A stretch of 64,000 bases of DNA from Acaryochloris sp. CCMEE 5410 (lineage in GTDB: Bacteria > Cyanobacteriota > Cyanobacteriia > Thermosynechococcales > Thermosynechococcaceae), in contig NZ_AFEJ02000001.1 in assembly GCF_000238775.2 (NCBI RefSeq), forward strand, positions 2,108,001 through 2,172,000. Direction: 5' to 3'. Within the stretch, counting starts at the first letter, position 1. Each line of letters begins with the position of its first letter. The notes below the pieces were generated by a model. That model did not search any database. It was not told the origin of the DNA and worked only from the letters and a program-made list of their open reading frames with translations. This document shows, in pieces, positions 32,180 to 42,074 of this stretch. Position numbers and translations under genes: made by a program.

Positions 32180-34861
32180 TTGATATCTACCAACGTGACT
32201 ATTTCTAGTACCCCTGACCTACGACATGTGTTGACCAAAGATGTCAACAAAACAATCCTGGACAATGGCTTAACAATCTTACTGAAGGAAGTGCATACGG
32301 CACCGGTCGTCAGTGTGCAAGTGTGGTATCGAGTGGGTTCCCGCAATGAGGCATTAGGGCTCAATGGCATAACCCACCAGCTAGAACACTTGATGTTTAA
32401 GGGCACCCACTCTCGTCCAATCCAATTTGGCAAACTCTTCAGCGCCCTGGGCAGTGCCTCCAACGCCTTTACCAGCTATGACATGACCGCCTATTACGGC
32501 ACCGTGGGTAGCGACAAATTAGAAACCTTGCTGATCCTGGAAGCCGACCGGATGCAGAACGTAACACTGACGGCTGAACATCTGGCCAGTGAGAAGCGTG
32601 TCGTGATTTCAGAGCTGCAGGGCTATGAGAATAGTCCTGACTATCGCCTGAGTAAAGCCGTGATGCAGCAGGCTTTTCCAGAGTCCAACTATGGGTTGTC
32701 AGTTGGAGGAAACAAGTCGGACGTGGAGCAATTTACCCTAGACCAAGTGCAGGAATATTACCAAACCTATTACCAGCCGAGTAATGCCACGTTGGTGATC
32801 ACGGGGGATTTTGACGAACGTACGGTTCTAGAACAAATTCAGACCTACTTTGGTCCCATTCCTAGTCGTCCAGTCGCAACGGCCCCGACACCCATGTCCG
32901 TGGTTACAAAAACTGCCCCCTCAGCGCCGATTGTATTGAAAGAACCTGGCAGCGCCCCTCTGCTAGATGCGGTCTACCCCATCCCTGATGCCCAGCATCC
33001 CGATATTCCGGCCCTAGAGATTTTGGATTCCATTCTATCGGCTGGGCGCAATTCACGGTTTTATCCCGCCTTAATTGAGTCTGGCTTAGCCACGAATGCC
33101 CATGCCTATGTTGCCTCCCTGATGGATGGGGGTTGGTACAACATTTCGGTGACCGCTGCTGCAGGGGAACTGTCAGAAATTGATCAGGTGGTGGAGGCAA
33201 CCCTGGAGCAACTGCGGAGCCAGCCCATTAACCTTGAAGAGCTGGAACGAGCCAAAACTCAGGTCAAGGCTGGCTTTATTCTCAGTAACCGCGAGATTGA
33301 GAATCAGGCGAGCCAGTTGGCCTACAACCAAATTGTCACCAATGATCACTGCTTTAGCGATCGCTATCTAAAGGGGATTGAAGCGGTGACCCCTGCTGAT
33401 GTGCAGCGAGTCGCTCAGACCTATCTCACCCCTACCCAGAGAACGGTTGGTTTATTCGAGCCCACGCAGCTAGAGGGTCAGCCCATGCCTGCGAGCATTC
33501 CCGCCACCCAAACGGCAGAGAACTTTACGCCAAGCGAGCCGGTGGATCCGGCTCAGGTCGCTAAATATCTACCGGACTTGGCCACCTCTGCTGGCTCTGA
33601 CACCCAATCTTTGCCGGAGCGGTGGGTCTTAGATAATGGTCTAACGGTGCTGTTACTCGAGGATCACAGTACGCCCACGGTGACCCTGAGTGGTCATATT
33701 CAGGCTGGCAATCAGTGGGATTATCTGACTTTGGGCGGGGTGGCCAGCATGACGGCGGACAACCTGATGAGTGGCACGACGAGCAAAGATGATCTAGCCA
33801 TTGCTAAAGCCTTAGAAAATCGCGGGGCCAGTTTAGATTTTCTATCCCTGCGAGAAGGCGTTGATGTCTCGGGCTATGCCTTATCTCCTGACCTCCCCGT
33901 GGTGCTAGAGACCTTGGCAGACGTCCTGCAGCATGCGACCTTCCCTCAACAGCTGTTGGATTTATCTCGTCAGCGCATGCTGACCCACCTGCAGTTAGAG
34001 CTAGATGATCCAGGGGCGCTAGCCCGACGGACCTTTCAGCAAAAAATTTATGCCCAAGACCATCCGTTTCATGGGTTCCCCACAGCCAATAGCCTGAAAA
34101 ACATCAGCAGAGAAGGAATTTTGCGGTTTTATGAGCAGCATTATCGTCCCGACAATATGATTTTGACCTTGGTGGGAGATTTTGAGGGTGCGGAGTTGCG
34201 ATCGCACCTCAACCGAACCCTAGGCCAATGGCAAAATCTCCAGAGTTCTACCCCGCTCAACTTTCCTGAACCTCAGATGCCTCCTACGATCCAGCGAGTG
34301 AATGCACCTCTACCGGGCAAAACTCAAGTGGTGACCTATATGGGCTATCCCGGTATTGAACGCCACCATTCTCTCTACTATGCAGCCATGCTTCTGAACC
34401 AGATTATCGGAGGCGATACGTTATCGAGTCGTTTAGGTACTGAAATCCGCGATCGCAAAGGACTCACCTACGGCATCTACAGCTATTTTGCCGCCGGACT
34501 CCATGCAGGTCCCTTTGCCGTACAGATGCAAACATCCCCCGAAGATACTCAAACTGCGATTTCCAGTACCCTCGCCTTACTCAAACAAGTGAAAGCAAAA
34601 GGAATTACTCAGTCCGAGCTAGACACAGCCCAGCGCTCCATCCTCAACAGCTATCCCGTTGATCTGGCTGATCCCGATATTCTGGCCCAGCGGTTTTTGA
34701 TGAATGAAGTCCTGGGCTTACCCATCGAAGAAATCCGTCACCTTCCCCAACGCATCGGCGCTGTCACCATGGCCGAGATTAATCAGGCCATTGAAGCCTT
34801 TATCCATCCTGACCGAATGGTTATCGTTTCTGCTGGTCCCGTGGATGCCATTCGGAGCTAG
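32180..34861 (+). CDS. M16 zinc peptidase, active and inactive halves fused
   Basis: 893 residues. The N-terminal half has the inverted zinc motif H66-x-x-E69-H70 (ITHQLEHLMFKGT) and the distal glutamate in SEKRVVISELQGYENSPD. The C-terminal half (about 480-893) repeats the M16 fold (WVLDNGLTVLLLEDHSTPTV; GDTLSSRLGTEIRDRKGLTYG) but has SMTADNLMSGTT where HxxEH would be, so it is the non-catalytic half. Resembles bacterial processing peptidases that are often encoded as two genes. No signal peptide visible. The start (TTG 32180 or GTG 32195) is uncertain. Confidence 0.92.
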   Translation: MISTNVTISSTPDLRHVLTKDVNKTILDNGLTILLKEVHTAPVVSVQVWYRVGSRNEALGLNGITHQLEHLMFKGTHSRPIQFGKLFSALGSASNAFTSYDMTAYYGTVGSDKLETLLILEADRMQNVTLTAEHLASEKRVVISELQGYENSPDYRLSKAVMQQAFPESNYGLSVGGNKSDVEQFTLDQVQEYYQTYYQPSNATLVITGDFDERTVLEQIQTYFGPIPSRPVATAPTPMSVVTKTAPSAPIVLKEPGSAPLLDAVYPIPDAQHPDIPALEILDSILSAGRNSRFYPALIESGLATNAHAYVASLMDGGWYNISVTAAAGELSEIDQVVEATLEQLRSQPINLEELERAKTQVKAGFILSNREIENQASQLAYNQIVTNDHCFSDRYLKGIEAVTPADVQRVAQTYLTPTQRTVGLFEPTQLEGQPMPASIPATQTAENFTPSEPVDPAQVAKYLPDLATSAGSDTQSLPERWVLDNGLTVLLLEDHSTPTVTLSGHIQAGNQWDYLTLGGVASMTADNLMSGTTSKDDLAIAKALENRGASLDFLSLREGVDVSGYALSPDLPVVLETLADVLQHATFPQQLLDLSRQRMLTHLQLELDDPGALARRTFQQKIYAQDHPFHGFPTANSLKNISREGILRFYEQHYRPDNMILTLVGDFEGAELRSHLNRTLGQWQNLQSSTPLNFPEPQMPPTIQRVNAPLPGKTQVVTYMGYPGIERHHSLYYAAMLLNQIIGGDTLSSRLGTEIRDRKGLTYGIYSYFAAGLHAGPFAVQMQTSPEDTQTAISSTLALLKQVKAKGITQSELDTAQRSILNSYPVDLADPDILAQRFLMNEVLGLPIEEIRHLPQRIGAVTMAEINQAIEAFIHPDRMVIVSAGPVDAIRS

Positions 34862-37371
34862 CAGTTGGGAGCAGAGGGTTGGAAAGCATAATGAGATGGA
34901 CCTTGGCGCTGGGTTGTTAACACGGTGCGTCCCTGTTCATCCTGCTGCCAGCCTTGAGCTTCCGTAATCTCCTGAACTGGAGTATCTGTAGGCAAAGTAG
35001 CCGTCAATTCGGAGGCAGGACTGACCTGAGACAAAGGCTCAGAATCCGTACGCAGGTCTTGCCAAACCGCCAAGGGAGAAAGAGCGCTGTGGGGATTAAT
35101 GGGTAACCCCCCTCGCCCGGAACGTTTAAGTCGGCTTTGGTTCGCAAATTGCCGAGTTTGACATCCCTGCGCAATAGGTTGAGGAGCCTCTACCTCATCG
35201 GGTTGTTCTGCCAGGTTGTCGCTGGGGTCAGCATCGGGGGTGTTGAGTTCCACCACACCATTGAGCTGAGGATTGTTTTGAGAAATGGCTGTAATGTCAT
35301 TTAGGTTAGTGTTGCGATCTCGGACTGCAATCCCAAATAGACCTTGAGTTGTAATCGTAATTTGCCCTCCCGGTCCATTCATCGCATTCGCAGTAATATT
35401 GCTATCCCCCTCAAAAGGCAGTGCAACTAATAAATCGGCATTAATTTTGATATTGCCACCTGCATCAATCCCCGAGGCATTAGTCGTAATATTGCTGCCA
35501 TCTCCCAGGAGTAATAGGTTGGCCTCAATCCTAATATTACCAGCGGGGCTTGCCACTGCATTACTACTAATTTGACTCTGATTTTCCAAGAATACTGAGT
35601 TCGCTGTTACGCTCAAAGAGCCAGTCTGGCCTTGGGCGACACTACTCAGCTGAAGGGTTCCCCCATCCTTGACCATTAAAACGCCAGTATCGATTGTGAC
35701 ATCTCCGGAATTACCTGCACCAAAAGAACCGGCATTAATTTGACTTGCAATCAAGCCTGATCGACTAACACCTAAAATTTCGACCGATTGAGTTGCGTTG
35801 ATCCGGATATCTCCCGCTTGCCCTAAACCAAAGGCACTGGCAGTAATTACACCACCATCACGAAGAATCAGTTTATTGGCTCGAATAATGGTATCCAGGG
35901 CATTATTCTCACTAATAGACGCGGTAGAGATATTACTCGTTGAGAAGCCACGTTTGCTGGACCCGACAATTTCAACCGTACCCCGCGCATTGAGAGTAAT
36001 CGCCCCACCAGGCCCAAGATTTGATCCCGCTGTCAGGTTAGCCCCATTCCGTAAGGTCAGATCGCCTGTATTAATGGTGATATTGCCACTGGGACCACTG
36101 TTAGGGACAAATGCACTACGAGCATTAATTTGACTAATGCTGGTCTGGTCAATCAGGAAGTTTCGAGTAACGGGTTCCGTAAAAGGAACCGCTTCTGGAA
36201 CAAAGCCCAAGAGGATCGTTTCCCCTCCCACATCAATAGAACGAGCTGCATTGATGGTAAGGTTGCCTCCAGGACCCAAGCCATCGGTCGCTGCTGTAAT
36301 CTTTGCACCATCTGTAACCCGCACAGTGCCAGTATTAATTTCGATGGCACTGGCCTGCCCAGAGCCAATTGTGGTTGAAAAAATAGTGGTTGTCTGGGGT
36401 AAAAAGAATCCTCGTTGAGCAAAAAAGGGATCTATTGGACTATTTGGTGCAAAATTGCCCAAAACCTCTAGAGAGGTTTCGGCGTTGACCGTAATACCGC
36501 TACCATCAACATTTCCCAAAGTAATGGATTGCAGTCGTCCTCCATCAGCCAGGGTGACGCGATCGCCCTGCACATTGATCAATCCACCACCTGGGCCACT
36601 CGTATCAACAATCGCTAAATTATCAATGCGAATATCTTGAAAGCGTTGGACACCGCTGTAGTCTAGTCCAAAAGATAAGGGATCGAGCTGCACCTGTTGA
36701 TTCGCATCAACGGCCCCTAACTCAATTCGCCCTCCTGGAGCCGTTAGATTGCCCCTGATATTCACATCGCCCCCCAACAGGCTCAACATTTGACCCGGCT
36801 GAACGGTAAGGCCAGATCGTACTGTAATCGGACCCGGCTGTTGGTCAAACACTAATCCCAGGGGCTGATTAATGGACAGTAACGGCGCAGACTGGGCAGT
36901 AGGCATTGCGCTAAAAGCGCTGCCATTCGGGAACAGAACACGATTTGCTGTTGTGGCTAAAAAAGAGCCCCCTAAATTCAATTGAGCGTTGGGACCAAAC
37001 AAGATCCCTTTGGGGTTAATTAGGAATAAATTAGTGGTTCCATTGGCTCGAAGCACACCATCTACACTCGATGCCTGTCCTCCTGTAATCCGGGCAAAGA
37101 TATGGGTCAGAGCAGGATTCTGATCAAAATAGGCAGTCGTGCCAGGGGGCAAATCAAACTGCCGAAAACTATGAAATAAGTTTTGCCCTGCCTGAGTCCC
37201 GCCCAGAATTCGTTGAATTGCGCCTTCTGAACGCACTTCGGAATTAATCGGCAAAGTAGTATCAGGGCGAATTTGAGCTGAGGCTGAAGACCACAGGCCG
37301 ATCCACCCTAGAACACTGATTGTTGCCCACAGCAAAGCTTTATTGTGATTGGTTCGAGCCAAATTTAACAA
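34858..37371 (-). CDS. Two-partner-secretion exoprotein with filamentous haemagglutinin N-domain
   Basis: 837 residues: signal peptide (cut near ASA, about residue 32), then the TPS/haemagglutination activity domain (GTTAYFDQNPALTHIFARIT, NGTTNLFLINPKGILFGPNA, LNLGGSFLATTANRV), followed by about 500 residues of beta-helix repeats with recurring GG.I.I.T/A and NLTIN patterns, and a polar tail with a CQTR motif. Typical of large cyanobacterial TPS proteins; no TpsB/FhaC transporter is encoded nearby. Its end overlaps the M16 gene convergently by 4 bases. Begins with TTG. Confidence 0.9.
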   Translation of the reverse strand: MLNLARTNHNKALLWATISVLGWIGLWSSASAQIRPDTTLPINSEVRSEGAIQRILGGTQAGQNLFHSFRQFDLPPGTTAYFDQNPALTHIFARITGGQASSVDGVLRANGTTNLFLINPKGILFGPNAQLNLGGSFLATTANRVLFPNGSAFSAMPTAQSAPLLSINQPLGLVFDQQPGPITVRSGLTVQPGQMLSLLGGDVNIRGNLTAPGGRIELGAVDANQQVQLDPLSFGLDYSGVQRFQDIRIDNLAIVDTSGPGGGLINVQGDRVTLADGGRLQSITLGNVDGSGITVNAETSLEVLGNFAPNSPIDPFFAQRGFFLPQTTTIFSTTIGSGQASAIEINTGTVRVTDGAKITAATDGLGPGGNLTINAARSIDVGGETILLGFVPEAVPFTEPVTRNFLIDQTSISQINARSAFVPNSGPSGNITINTGDLTLRNGANLTAGSNLGPGGAITLNARGTVEIVGSSKRGFSTSNISTASISENNALDTIIRANKLILRDGGVITASAFGLGQAGDIRINATQSVEILGVSRSGLIASQINAGSFGAGNSGDVTIDTGVLMVKDGGTLQLSSVAQGQTGSLSVTANSVFLENQSQISSNAVASPAGNIRIEANLLLLGDGSNITTNASGIDAGGNIKINADLLVALPFEGDSNITANAMNGPGGQITITTQGLFGIAVRDRNTNLNDITAISQNNPQLNGVVELNTPDADPSDNLAEQPDEVEAPQPIAQGCQTRQFANQSRLKRSGRGGLPINPHSALSPLAVWQDLRTDSEPLSQVSPASELTATLPTDTPVQEITEAQGWQQDEQGRTVLTTQRQGPSHYAFQPSAPNC

Positions 37372-37486: not shown

Positions 37487-40400
37487 CTAAGCAATGGCAT
37501 CCGGTAATTCTGCTCGGTTATAGAGAAAATTGACCATTGCCTGGGAGCTATCCAACAGCTCAGGGGTCTCTGCCAGGGTCTGTTTTAACTCTTCCGAAAC
37601 CACTTTCACATAGGTCTGGGGGAGACTCTCTGGATTACTCGATTTGATAATAATCAGTTGGCCCAGCAGCAGAACTCCATTTTCTACAGCAGCAATGATT
37701 TTTAACAGAGCTGCGAGGGCCTTGGCACTCTGATGGAGAAGTGACGATGGCTCATCATATTGTTGCCTGGGTGGGTGACCGCGAAACAAGTCAACCCCCA
37801 CTTGGGCAATTTCAGCGAACTGCTGGGAGGAAAGTTGATCCGTATCTTGATATTGAACATCTTGAACTAAGGTATCTTCTTCAACTCGAAGCACAACCGG
37901 ATTATGGTATCCACAGGCCATCGCATATTGTTCAACACCACGATGGACCGCCGAAGATACGCCATTAGCATCAAAAATCCTCATCTTAAAGGTTTGCTTT
38001 GCACTCGCATCTGCACTGTCATGCAGAACTTTAGGAAAAACATCCTGGTCAAATAGATCCTGGATGCGTTGTCTGAGGCTCTCAGGTTCCACTTGATCCA
38101 GCACCCCTTGGTAATCATCCCGAACGTCATAGTCCGTCCGCGAGGGGGGCGATTCCAGCTTGCTCAGCCAGGCTGTATGTAGGGTTGGCCCAATATTTAA
38201 CTCCGGGTGATTCAGCCGATATAGCGGCCCTTGGCTGAGGTGGGCGGCATCAAAGATCCATAGCTCACTCAACTTAGGATGGATTGCATGGTCTGTTTGT
38301 GGATAATCCGTCGCCACAACTACGCAAACAATATAGCCATGGGTAGAACTGGGGAGGCCATCTTCTCTGGGGACGAACTGAGGAGAGCTGGCATAACAGC
38401 CTGGCGGAAAGGCGTAATAGTCTTCAACCTTGAGTTGAGGAGGCGTGGAGGTCTGTCCGTCTAGAGCAGGAGTCTGACTGACTCGCAGTAGATTGGCTGG
38501 TCTGCCTTCCTTAGCAAGCCGGTTAATTTGTTGATCGAGTACTTGAGGCTCGATTTGTTCTTTGTATAAATCGAGATGATTGAGGGTGTGATGATTAGGC
38601 CAGGCACCGCCACAATTCCAATACACATCTGTGACTTGGTTGGCTGTCTTTTCGTTGAGGGCAAAGAAGGCCAGCAGCTGAAACTTGTCTTCGTCTTCAA
38701 TAATGACTTTTTCAGATTGCCCCGTTTCCATATTTAGGGTCCACGTCCCTAACTGATTCGGTGCCATACTGTTGGCTAAAACCCCGGATCGCTGCTGCAG
38801 GGCTTCATTGATATCTTCTGGACAAGGTTGGCCTGAGTTGCTAGTGGCGGAATAATGACAGACTGCCTCATCAATTTTGTTGACAAACTCGGCTGGATCA
38901 AGACCTTTGATATGACCGACATGGAGCACCACTTTACCGGCTGGATTATCATAGCTCGCCAGGAAATGGGCAGTTTCCGGTTGAAGACGAAAATGCTTAG
39001 CCTTGACTTTGCGGACACCTAGACTGGAATCCCCAGACTCCAGATCAGAGCGGGCAATAACGTACACATCGGTGTAGGGGGTTTGGGCGTAGTTGAGGAA
39101 TGAGAATAAATCTTGAAAATCCTGGCGCCAGTCCCTTTTAACCTCTTGTTTAATCTCCTCTGGATTTTTATCGGGAGAGTCAGTTGAGGTGGGAGTGGGT
39201 TCAGCCTTTTCGGTCCCTTTCTGTTTGGAGCGGGCAACAAACCGAACGATCTTGCGTAGGTTTTTTGTAAAATCTTGGGGATTGAAGAGGCTGGGCAGTA
39301 CATCAGCCACCACAAATTTAAAGCTGGAATCAGAGATGACAATGTAGTCTTTCGTCAAAGACATTTGATGAACGGACTGATAGATGGGAATTGAACGCCC
39401 CTTCTCCGTGACCACTTCCCATTGATTGGATTCCTCAATCTCTGTTTGCTCCCCCTGCCATCGATAGAGGAAAAGCCGATCGGTCCCCCCTACTTCCCAG
39501 AAGCTCAAAATAGCCAGCAATATCCCGACTAGCCACAGCGCAACATTAACGACCCCCAACACAACATAGTTAAAGAAGGACATTCGCGGGACACTGGGGT
39601 CTTCTTCCTCTTGCTTATTGATGAATTCCAAAACCCCTTTGAGGAAATAGGGCTGCAGCCGTGAGACTTGCATCATGCTCCCCATGGATTTGGTGCCATT
39701 GACCATATAAACGGCATCTTCATGGTCGTCATAAACCGGATGGGCCGATGACAAAATCATGGGAAAGACCTGGGACAAAATCGGGAACCCAAACCACTTT
39801 TGCAAAGGCCGTGAAACCGCTGGCATATCAAAAATGGGTTTCCAATCTTTATTGAGGCCGACGGGAGCAACTAATCCTAAGGAGCAAGGGTCAACTTCAT
39901 AGGGCCGTCCGGCATCCCAAGTCACCAGTAACCGCTCGCTATCATTTTGTTTCGGCTTTAAGGGTAACCAGGCGGTATTGAGATAATTTCGACCGCCCAA
40001 CCCGATCGATAGACGCGTTAGGGCTGCATCCCGAAACGTCAGCTGCTGATAGTCTGACCTCGGCTTTTGATACTTGGGGTTGGATTCCAAAGCCCAGTCT
40101 GCATAGTAATCAGGGGTTTTGATTAGACGAGTCGCTAAATGGGCCCATCCCGGTTGCTGGGTTGTGGCACAAGGCTGTTCGGGGTGAGGGTTTTCTGGTG
40201 TAGCGGTTGAATGCACAGAGTTATGAAAATCTAAGCGATAGATCATGCCATCGCCAGAATAAATATGTTGCCAACCATCTTGGGTGGGTAAATAAATCTC
40301 AGTATTTTCTATCTTTTTGGAATCAAAAGAGGCTGCCGTGCCAATCACAAATACATGGCCTTTCAAGGTGGAGGGGAGAGGCCCTAGCTCCTCAGACTGG

Positions 40401-40606
40401 GGAGAATGGCTATGCCAATATTGTGGATCTAGGAAGGCTGTACTGCTGGGGTCTACTTGTTTTTCCTCATTCTTCCTAGACAGAATCGTTAAACCTAGAG
40501 GCTGATGGTAATGTTCCTTACGACTGACCGACAAGATCGCTTTGGGAAAGGATGGCCAGGTTTGAGATGCTGTTGAAGGTCCGCTCACTGTGATGTTCCC
40601 TTGCAC
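37487..40606 (-). CDS. Very large carotenoid-oxygenase-like membrane protein
   Basis: 1039 residues, no close family recognised as a whole, but CCO/RPE65-like blocks occur in order: SGDGMIYRLDFH (117-128), LLVTWDAGRPYEVDPCSLG (226-244), SSAHPVYDD with H289, SVHQMSLTKDYIVISDSSFK with H413, TAHFLASYDN with H547, PQFVPREDG followed by HGYIVCVVV, SELWIFDAAHLSQGPLYRL and PTLHTAW with H810. These match the positions of the four iron-binding histidines of carotenoid cleavage oxygenases. A membrane helix (344-369) is inserted between the first two, a charged linker lies at about 460-495, and about 225 extra residues follow the last block, ending in a hydrophobic helix near 980. CCOs are normally near 480-550 residues. 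Start is GTG at 40606. Confidence 0.6.
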   Translation of the reverse strand: MQGNITVSGPSTASQTWPSFPKAILSVSRKEHYHQPLGLTILSRKNEEKQVDPSSTAFLDPQYWHSHSPQSEELGPLPSTLKGHVFVIGTAASFDSKKIENTEIYLPTQDGWQHIYSGDGMIYRLDFHNSVHSTATPENPHPEQPCATTQQPGWAHLATRLIKTPDYYADWALESNPKYQKPRSDYQQLTFRDAALTRLSIGLGGRNYLNTAWLPLKPKQNDSERLLVTWDAGRPYEVDPCSLGLVAPVGLNKDWKPIFDMPAVSRPLQKWFGFPILSQVFPMILSSAHPVYDDHEDAVYMVNGTKSMGSMMQVSRLQPYFLKGVLEFINKQEEEDPSVPRMSFFNYVVLGVVNVALWLVGILLAILSFWEVGGTDRLFLYRWQGEQTEIEESNQWEVVTEKGRSIPIYQSVHQMSLTKDYIVISDSSFKFVVADVLPSLFNPQDFTKNLRKIVRFVARSKQKGTEKAEPTPTSTDSPDKNPEEIKQEVKRDWRQDFQDLFSFLNYAQTPYTDVYVIARSDLESGDSSLGVRKVKAKHFRLQPETAHFLASYDNPAGKVVLHVGHIKGLDPAEFVNKIDEAVCHYSATSNSGQPCPEDINEALQQRSGVLANSMAPNQLGTWTLNMETGQSEKVIIEDEDKFQLLAFFALNEKTANQVTDVYWNCGGAWPNHHTLNHLDLYKEQIEPQVLDQQINRLAKEGRPANLLRVSQTPALDGQTSTPPQLKVEDYYAFPPGCYASSPQFVPREDGLPSSTHGYIVCVVVATDYPQTDHAIHPKLSELWIFDAAHLSQGPLYRLNHPELNIGPTLHTAWLSKLESPPSRTDYDVRDDYQGVLDQVEPESLRQRIQDLFDQDVFPKVLHDSADASAKQTFKMRIFDANGVSSAVHRGVEQYAMACGYHNPVVLRVEEDTLVQDVQYQDTDQLSSQQFAEIAQVGVDLFRGHPPRQQYDEPSSLLHQSAKALAALLKIIAAVENGVLLLGQLIIIKSSNPESLPQTYVKVVSEELKQTLAETPELLDSSQAMVNFLYNRAELPDAIA

Positions 40607-40875: not shown

Positions 40876-41742
40876 TTAATCCAGACTAATTTGCGACCCC
40901 CAAGCATCCTGGGGAACGAAGGTGCGATCGCACGCAATAGACGCCACGGGTTCCGTTAAGGTAAACGTCCCCAACTCAATCCACTGCTTTAGTTCCAGCG
41001 CCACCTGACGCGCCAGGGCCATACTGGCTAACGGAGCAGAACGGACTTTGGTGCTCTCCACCTGAATGGTTCCAGATTTAAGCTGGGCATAGCTGACGAG
41101 GCCAAAGGTGGGTCGCACTCGACGAGGAATCGAAAAATCGATAATGGGAGCCACTAAGTCTTCATCCGTAACCGCACAGCAGCGGACGACTTCTTCATCT
41201 ATTACCGGTAAGGGAATCCCGACCCCCAACATCAAGGAGGGGCCATACTGCTTGAAATAACAGCCTCGCACCCATCGCGACTCCATCTGTTTGGCATCTC
41301 CAATCAGTGCCAGAGTCGCCGCTGGCCCAATGGGCGTATCATTCGGCAATCGTTTTTGGAGTGGAAAATGCTGAGTACCTTCCCAGGTGACATAGCCCAC
41401 GCCTCCCCCTAAAAAGATGCGAGTGCCAACGCCAATCAACCGTAGGTTGGGGTCATTGAGGAGGGGAGATAAAGCGCCTGGATTGGAGTAGATGGCATTG
41501 CCTAAACGCGGTTGTAAGGGACCTAAGTAGGTATAAAGCAGATGATCGCCCCCATTCACCCCCACAATAAAGTTTTGGTAGAGATTGCGGGGATTAAACA
41601 GATAAAACTGATTGATGGTCTCCTTGGTAATCATCGTGTCCAGAGTGGCCCGGGGATAGCAATCGGTCATTTGTCCCAGTGCCCGGAGATGAACCGCTCT
41701 ACCGGCGATCAAATCTTCAATCACATGGCCGCCCCCTTGCAT
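40876..41742 (-). CDS. DUF39 homocysteine-biosynthesis protein, C-terminal part after a frameshift
   Basis: 288 residues of the HcyBio/DUF39 family: GGGHVIEDLIAGRAVHLRA, INQFYLFNPRNLYQNFIVG, LYTYLGPLQPRLGNAIYSNP and GTRIFLGGGVGYV. In methanogens and other microbes DUF39 proteins, with a ferredoxin partner, make homocysteine from aspartate semialdehyde. The family is about 390-400 residues long; the missing N-terminal quarter lies in the overlapping frame at 41721-42074. Adding one base in the G run at 41754-41757 (minus strand) would join the two. Either a real inactivating frameshift, a sequencing error, or recoding. Confidence 0.85.
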   Translation of the reverse strand: MQGGGHVIEDLIAGRAVHLRALGQMTDCYPRATLDTMITKETINQFYLFNPRNLYQNFIVGVNGGDHLLYTYLGPLQPRLGNAIYSNPGALSPLLNDPNLRLIGVGTRIFLGGGVGYVTWEGTQHFPLQKRLPNDTPIGPAATLALIGDAKQMESRWVRGCYFKQYGPSLMLGVGIPLPVIDEEVVRCCAVTDEDLVAPIIDFSIPRRVRPTFGLVSYAQLKSGTIQVESTKVRSAPLASMALARQVALELKQWIELGTFTLTEPVASIACDRTFVPQDAWGSQISLD

Positions 41743-42074
41743 CTGGATATCTTCCCCTCCATCAATTCTGAGGGCTGCTTGCGATCCGGGGCTTGGGAAG
41801 CACCTAGGTAAAGGTCAACGGCCCCAAACCCCGAATAGGCCGCCACCCCATCCAGCCAGCATTGGCGAATTTTAATGGGTGGATCCGTATGCCCCAAGTT
41901 GAGAATGGCCCCGGAAGATTCCATCGGTTCAAAGGTGCCCGTGGTAATCACATCGACAGCTTTCGCGGCTTTAGTAATCCCCATATCGGCCACTTTGGCT
42001 TTTAGTTCTTCGACGGTCCAAACCACGGCTTTGCCCGCTTCGATTTTGTCGTTAATCTCGGCAATCGTACGCAT
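41721..42074 (-). CDS. DUF39 homocysteine-biosynthesis protein, N-terminal part before a frameshift
   Basis: 117 codons that begin as the family does: TIAEINDKIEAGKAVVWTVE, TTGTFEPMESSGAILNLGHT and IRQCWLDGVAAYSGFGAVDL. The last 20 residues after LMEG are out-of-frame noise; the frame change lies at the minus-strand G4 run (41754-41757), after which the sequence continues in the other frame as EDIQMQGGGHVIED. Divergent from the ferredoxin-MBL gene, about 100 bases away. Confidence 0.8.
   Translation of the reverse strand: MRTIAEINDKIEAGKAVVWTVEELKAKVADMGITKAAKAVDVITTGTFEPMESSGAILNLGHTDPPIKIRQCWLDGVAAYSGFGAVDLYLGASQAPDRKQPSELMEGKISRCKGAAM

Follow-up and report, generated by a model that had tools for sequence, protein, structure and literature searches.

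Here we report that the minus strand of a 64,000-nucleotide stretch of DNA (the window, to which all unqualified coordinates refer) encodes a 1039-residue member of a clade-wide, cyanobacteria-centred subfamily of long carotenoid cleavage oxygenase (CCO) homologues, a kind that a preliminary description of the sequence had been unable to name. Proteins of this subfamily retain the four His that bind iron in ordinary CCOs, have lost most of the carboxylates that surround those His, and are usually encoded directly beside a large partner gene, most often one for a signalling protein. We tentatively favour, at somewhat less than an even chance, the reading that the protein is a membrane-surface four-His iron enzyme converting a polyene whose product signals to the adjacent partner.

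Homology to the RPE65/CCO family

The open frame of the protein extends just 11 codons further upstream before closing (Table 1). The motifs and His numbering quoted in the preliminary description are exact; the strand, which it did not give, is minus. Its proposal that the protein is homologous to CCOs, together with the profile search that it suggested, was borne out: the single family found by Pfam was RPE65 (PF03055; E=2.3e-26; 93.3 bits, the curated cut-off being 27 bits), which aligned with residues 75-814 over model positions 19-468 of 469, and a profile-profile alignment (hhalign) with 11 ordinary CCOs spanned residue 26 to nearly the end of the core (probability 99.9%, E=1.2e-31). A single-sequence search of the PDB returned weak matches to lignostilbene dioxygenase and to ACO of Synechocystis, mostly over the C-terminal signature, and a profile of 17 relatives matched ACO, lignostilbene dioxygenases, fungal carotenoid oxygenases and RPE65, among others. 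Because of the PF03055 score, the hhalign probability and the invariance of the four His, the motifs go beyond chance, and both the homology and the four-His motif are nearly certain. The core would be expected to fold into a seven-bladed propeller in which all four His meet at a single iron; AlphaFold2 runs with the sequences of the window and the relatives L007 and L008 gave pLDDT values of 33.8 at full length and 34.1 for the core only, too low to show the fold. Assignment as a lignostilbene-alpha,beta-dioxygenase was rejected, with scores of 22.3 for NF053778 (cut-off 800) and 21.6 for NF053780 (cut-off 650). The source genome (8.09 Mb) encodes five ordinary CCOs in addition to the 1039-residue long CCO.

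Table 1. Features of the long CCO and its downstream neighbour, with positions in the window.
Feature	Position	Strand	Basis or remark
Long CCO-superfamily protein	37487..40606	-	1039 aa, GTG start
RPE65/CCO core, residues 75-814	38165..40384	-	PF03055, 93.3 bits; hhalign against ordinary CCOs
Thr211, aligned with the occluding second-sphere Thr of ordinary CCOs	39974..39976	-	hhalign; Thr 48/56, Val 5, Ile 3
Asp231, replacing a second-shell Glu (ACO Glu150)	39914..39916	-	Asp 54/56, Glu 2/56; Glu 11/11 in ordinary CCOs
His289, putative iron ligand 1	39740..39742	-	aligns with ACO His183; 56/56 in subfamily
H1-H2 insert, residues 304-395	39422..39697	-	spacing comparison in clade
Strongly hydrophobic helix, residues 344-369	39500..39577	-	Kyte-Doolittle 2.72 over 348-366
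His413, putative iron ligand 2	39368..39370	-	ACO His238; His 56/56; followed by Gln414
Charged H2-H3 linker, about residues 436-505	39092..39301	-	dN/dS 0.19, least constrained stretch against L007
His547, putative iron ligand 3	38966..38968	-	ACO His304; 56/56
Phe642, replacing a second-shell Glu (ACO Glu370)	38681..38683	-	Thr in 40/56 relatives
Ser741, replacing a second-shell Glu (ACO Glu426)	38384..38386	-	Ser 55/56, Thr 1
His810, putative iron ligand 4	38177..38179	-	ACO His484; 55/55 rows reaching the position
Subfamily-wide C-terminal tail, residues 815-864	38015..38164	-	ends in LFxxxVYP-like motif
Acaryochloris-specific C-terminal domain, residues 865-1039	37490..38014	-	also in L063 and L064 pentapeptide-repeat proteins
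TPS-domain (two-partner-secretion, haemagglutinin-like) exoprotein	34858..37371	-	PF05860, 181.9 bits

A long cyanobacterial subfamily and selection on its 1039-residue member

Relatives were found in 18 of 386 cyanobacterial genomes by single-sequence search, and of 388 genomes from the class searched with a profile, 51 gave matches and 40 of these carry the long form, counted as matches above about 200 bits. Plasmid records add long CCOs of Fischerella, Kovacikia and, on one Bacteroidota plasmid, the genus Bernardetia; no relative of the long CCO was found in the viral contigs searched. Upstream of the plasmid-borne Fischerella CCO lie two 610-aa homologues of reverse transcriptase, inverted relative to each other and identical at their starts (L068 2416-4248 and 5999-7831). 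Members of the long subfamily measure about 650-1080 residues. In a quick LG+G4 tree that carried a long-branch warning, 56 long members and two outliers split from 11 ordinary CCOs with an SH-aLRT value of 100%, and because of the long branches only this gross division is read from the tree. The 1039-residue protein falls inside the monophyletic long group and has the three residues typical of it, Asp231, Ser741 and Gln743 (54, 55 and 56 of the 56 members, respectively). The two outliers (L134 166-2016 and L135 1243-3075; 616 and 610 aa) are very divergent relatives that retain the four His, Asp231, Ser741 and Gln743, have no insert between the first two His (H1-H2 insert) and lie beside kinase/AAA_16 genes.

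The protein is under purifying selection, with a dN/dS of ~0.10 over its whole length, 0.09 for the core, 0.12 for the C-terminal domain and 0.19 for the linker, measured against L007, a 79% identical reference with synonymous sites near saturation. In several genera, frameshifts or stops interrupt the long CCO gene (L040 8411-10058, L047 7906-10438 and L048 8964-11033), and in L043 (7599-10768) an insertion of ~1 kb divides it into two frames; to judge from these broken relatives, the gene is dispensable in some species. Such cases lend some colour to the idea that the window holds a degenerating gene or a chance open frame, which we regard as highly improbable given the frames open at full length in the window, L007, L008 and L065 and the low dN/dS extending into the C-terminal domain. 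The L043 insertion consists of two overlapping ORFs, which recur near the CCO of L042, and resembles an insertion element.

Putative iron ligands and second shell

All four His assigned in the preliminary description, His289, His413, His547 and His810, correspond in alignment to the iron-binding His of ordinary CCOs and are invariant in the 56-member alignment, in which one row is truncated before His810 and 55 therefore reach it; the ACO numbering was derived through alignment of the paralogue L001 to 2biw. Gln414, present in 55 of the 56 long members, stands where ordinary CCOs have an invariant Asp and is specific to the clade.

The residues behind these ligands are different. In CCOs, three of the four His are held by hydrogen bonds from three second-shell Glu (PMC8866865, PMC5133782; Glu/Asp in PMC12051055), mutagenesis has demonstrated the need for these Glu (PMC5133782), and a Thr, Val or Ile occludes near the iron in CCDs (PMC12051055, PMC11142922). 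The three Glu are present in 11, 11 and 10 of the 11 ordinary CCOs analysed. At the second of these sites the long protein has Phe642, which is Phe in all four Acaryochloris rows and lies in a weakly aligned stretch, making it the least certain of the second-shell assignments. The third, Ser741, sits in a motif that reads SPQFVP as opposed to EPxFVP, and its assignment is also backed by the PDB profile alignments. Compared with catalytic CCDs, the protein thus has the occluding residue (Thr211), keeps one carboxylate (Asp231) and has two replaced (Phe642 and Ser741); because two of the three second-shell sites deviate, we class it not as a catalytic CCD but as a divergent branch of the superfamily.

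Two PDB entries of ACO, 5kjb and 5kjd, have Asp and Gln at position 150, and we take both to belong to the work of Sui et al. in 2016. Those authors are said to have found that Glu150 of ACO is required, and the matching RPE65 change, Glu148Asp, is reportedly a disease allele. Replacement of Glu by Asp at this first second-shell site reportedly disables ACO and RPE65, two well-studied relatives, and the clade naturally carries this Asp. With two second-shell carboxylates gone and the third an Asp, canonical cleavage may be weak or lost; the intact His and the mostly retained Thr211 favour metal chemistry.

The loss of these carboxylates suggests that the protein is no standard dioxygenase, and a non-turnover ligand sensor is therefore a serious rival. 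Such a pseudo-oxygenase would bind iron, a carotenoid-like ligand or both without cleavage, and would signal the state of ligand, iron or redox to the neighbouring STAND or kinase protein by contact. The change of the second-shell Glu to Asp, Thr/Phe and Ser across the clade would fit this role, as would the multidomain signalling proteins adjoining long CCOs and the added domain, common to pentapeptide-repeat proteins and plausibly suited to protein contact. The four His and, for the most part, the occluding Thr are, however, absolutely or strongly constrained, beyond the need of a pocket that only binds, and we consider the sensor somewhat unlikely.

Insertions and C-terminal additions

The spacing between the first two His is 124 residues in the 1039-residue protein, 72-210 in the clade and 55 in ACO, and the site of the resulting insert presumably corresponds to the membrane-facing loops of RPE65. 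The segment within it that had been described as an inserted membrane helix is indeed strongly hydrophobic, a property nearly confined to Acaryochloris (Kyte-Doolittle 2.1-2.7, against about -0.8 to 2.1, mostly below 2, in other members), but it is unlikely to cross the membrane once. A single crossing within one loop would put the propeller halves on opposite sides of the membrane, whereas a chain inserted in a propeller loop must come back to the same side; a helix lying in the membrane plane or a re-entrant hairpin is therefore the likelier arrangement. The further claim that the protein is membrane-embedded is doubtful, and binding to the membrane surface likelier. Membrane binding is in itself not new, because CCOs generally attach to membranes by a hydrophobic patch around the mouth of the tunnel (PMC5133782, PMC11142922).

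The charged linker noted earlier is present and can be placed more precisely as an Acaryochloris expansion: the spacing between the second and third His is 134-155 residues in this genus and mostly 80-107 elsewhere, with L145 also long. Similarly, the 225 residues reported as extra at the C terminus are real additions but not one unit, comprising a subfamily tail of ~50 residues and a separate domain at 865-1039. Chains of most relatives end about 45-85 residues past His810. The ~175-residue domain is carried by the window, L007 and genome G387 (L065), and L008 is without it. Pentapeptide-repeat proteins encoded at L063 4398-5624 and L064 2076-3182 (another Acaryochloris) end in a domain of the same type with 24-25% identity; no Pfam family matched the domain, and a search of 243 other cyanobacteria did not find it. 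This mobile accessory domain probably serves protein contact. The lone match outside Acaryochloris among 146 genomes (L149) is peptidase-like, unmatched by the domain profile, and was set aside as chance.

Conserved gene neighbours

Annotated ORFs were surveyed around 55 long-CCO loci, with 68 other genes of the same loci as controls. At 46 of the 55 loci the CCO has a large partner gene as its immediate neighbour; by type, the partners are kinase/AAA_16/TPR/GAF/cyclase or AAA_35 proteins at 24 loci, NB-WD40 proteins at 11 and TPS exoproteins at 11. A signalling gene adjoins the CCO at 35/55 loci and only 1/68 control genes (Fisher P=2e-15), the enrichment of TPS genes is weaker (11/55 versus 3/68, P=0.009), and both P values ignore shared ancestry. 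Likewise, 33/55 long CCOs and 0/15 ordinary CCOs have a signalling partner within 1.5 kb (P=1.4e-5, again ignoring shared ancestry), the ordinary count leaving out L134 and L135, which are outlying members of the long clade and have a kinase. CCO and partner lie on one strand in 44 of 50 pairs, 38 of those within 200 bp, and the sole AAA_16 gene found in genome G370 is the one beside its CCOs. Tandem long CCOs of different sub-branches, usually near a kinase/cyclase gene, occur as if paired at L051, L106, L107, L108, L111 and L114.

Neighbour types track the sub-branches of the CCO tree, with few changes along it (WD 2, TPS 3, kinase 11). The CCO-adjacent kinases cluster (6 label changes versus a shuffled mean of 16.2) yet form several lineages, which led us to reject a single orthologous CCO-kinase pair and indicates that CCO and partner came together, or were recombined, on more than one occasion. 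The window's CCO sits in the TPS branch and has as its own neighbour a TPS exoprotein, not a kinase; that gene lies 115 bp downstream on the same strand, a pairing conserved in the window's sub-branch. Also beside the CCO is an HcyBio (homocysteine biosynthesis, PF01837) gene at 40876-42074 (-), apparently split by a frameshift into two overlapping frames that both match one 402-aa protein of L007. A role in anti-phage defence was rejected: the CCO matches no PADLOC model, and one partner kinase matches generic kinase/cyclase models alone, such as PD-T4-6 and PycC.

These neighbourhoods also bear on whether the protein is just an ordinary CCO whose loops are lineage-specific and whose neighbours are incidental. 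Clear homology, four intact His and a public record naming one relative 'carotenoid oxygenase family protein' all agree with this simpler account, which we nevertheless judge clearly unlikely in view of the clade-wide second-shell change and of strongly non-random neighbours that are absent at ordinary CCO loci.

Proposed function

According to the polyene-converting reading that we favour, the protein would be a four-His, single-iron beta-propeller resting on the membrane through the H1-H2 insert. It would take up a hydrophobic polyene, for example a carotenoid or apocarotenoid, which would be oxidised, isomerised or otherwise converted, and the product would be the signal for the neighbour-encoded protein, mostly a kinase/AAA_16/GAF/cyclase or NB-WD40 protein, but a secreted TPS exoprotein in the lineage of the window. 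Fold, iron, membrane pose, substrate and catalysis are all inferred here, as is the coupling of the product to the partner. A lipid-soluble signal made or read by the long CCO is suggested because its relatives adjoin large signalling genes; against this, adjacent genes need not act in one pathway, and loci that share descent do not count as independent cases. A broader scheme, possible but doubtful, is a dedicated cyanobacterial apocarotenoid or polyene module in which a four-His CCO with a carboxylate-poor second shell would make or present a hydrophobic ligand for adjacent STAND ATPases, Ser/Thr kinases or nucleotide cyclases, the partner having become a TPS exoprotein in Acaryochloris.

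Comparison with known systems

Long RPE65-like proteins are known. Table 2 of PMC3299332 includes Ava_2047, of 765 aa, and PMC7029182 describes WP_016873878.1 of Chlorogloeopsis as having just two of the four His, whereas all four are present in the 56 members aligned here. Both proteins may belong to the long subfamily, which they fit by length and annotation, and the parts of these two papers that treat them contain no mention of partner genes or of the second shell. A literature search that covered few subscription journals yielded no account of this subfamily, of its second shell or of the genes that partner it, and no CCO connection for the kinase-AAA_16-GAF-cyclase proteins of cyanobacteria. 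The altered second shell and the signalling-gene neighbours, neither of them noted in the preliminary description, are the most telling features of the protein. With AAA_35 proteins, these kinases adjoin the long CCO at 24/55 loci, and we take them to be HstK/PknK-like.

The best single-sequence PDB match is to the lignostilbene dioxygenases (6ojr and relatives; NCBIfam NF053778 and NF053780), which share the C-terminal signature at residues 734-814 but keep the Glu of the EPxFVPR motif. ACO (PDB 2biw; mutants 5kjb and 5kjd) shares with the long protein the RPE65/CCO core, the four aligned iron His and the occluding Thr. In contrast, ACO has 490 residues and not 1039, is without the H1-H2 insert, and has Glu150, Glu370 and Glu426 where the long protein has Asp231, Phe642 and Ser741; moreover, the ordinary CCO loci examined have no signalling partner. 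Even ordinary CCO functions in cyanobacteria are described as poorly understood (PMC5133782, PMC7029182). A trio of second-shell carboxylates has been described for four-His CCOs, and a clade that has lost two of the three with its His unchanged is a natural test of their role; if the signalling link is real, the long subfamily would also point to bacterial signalling by carotenoid products.
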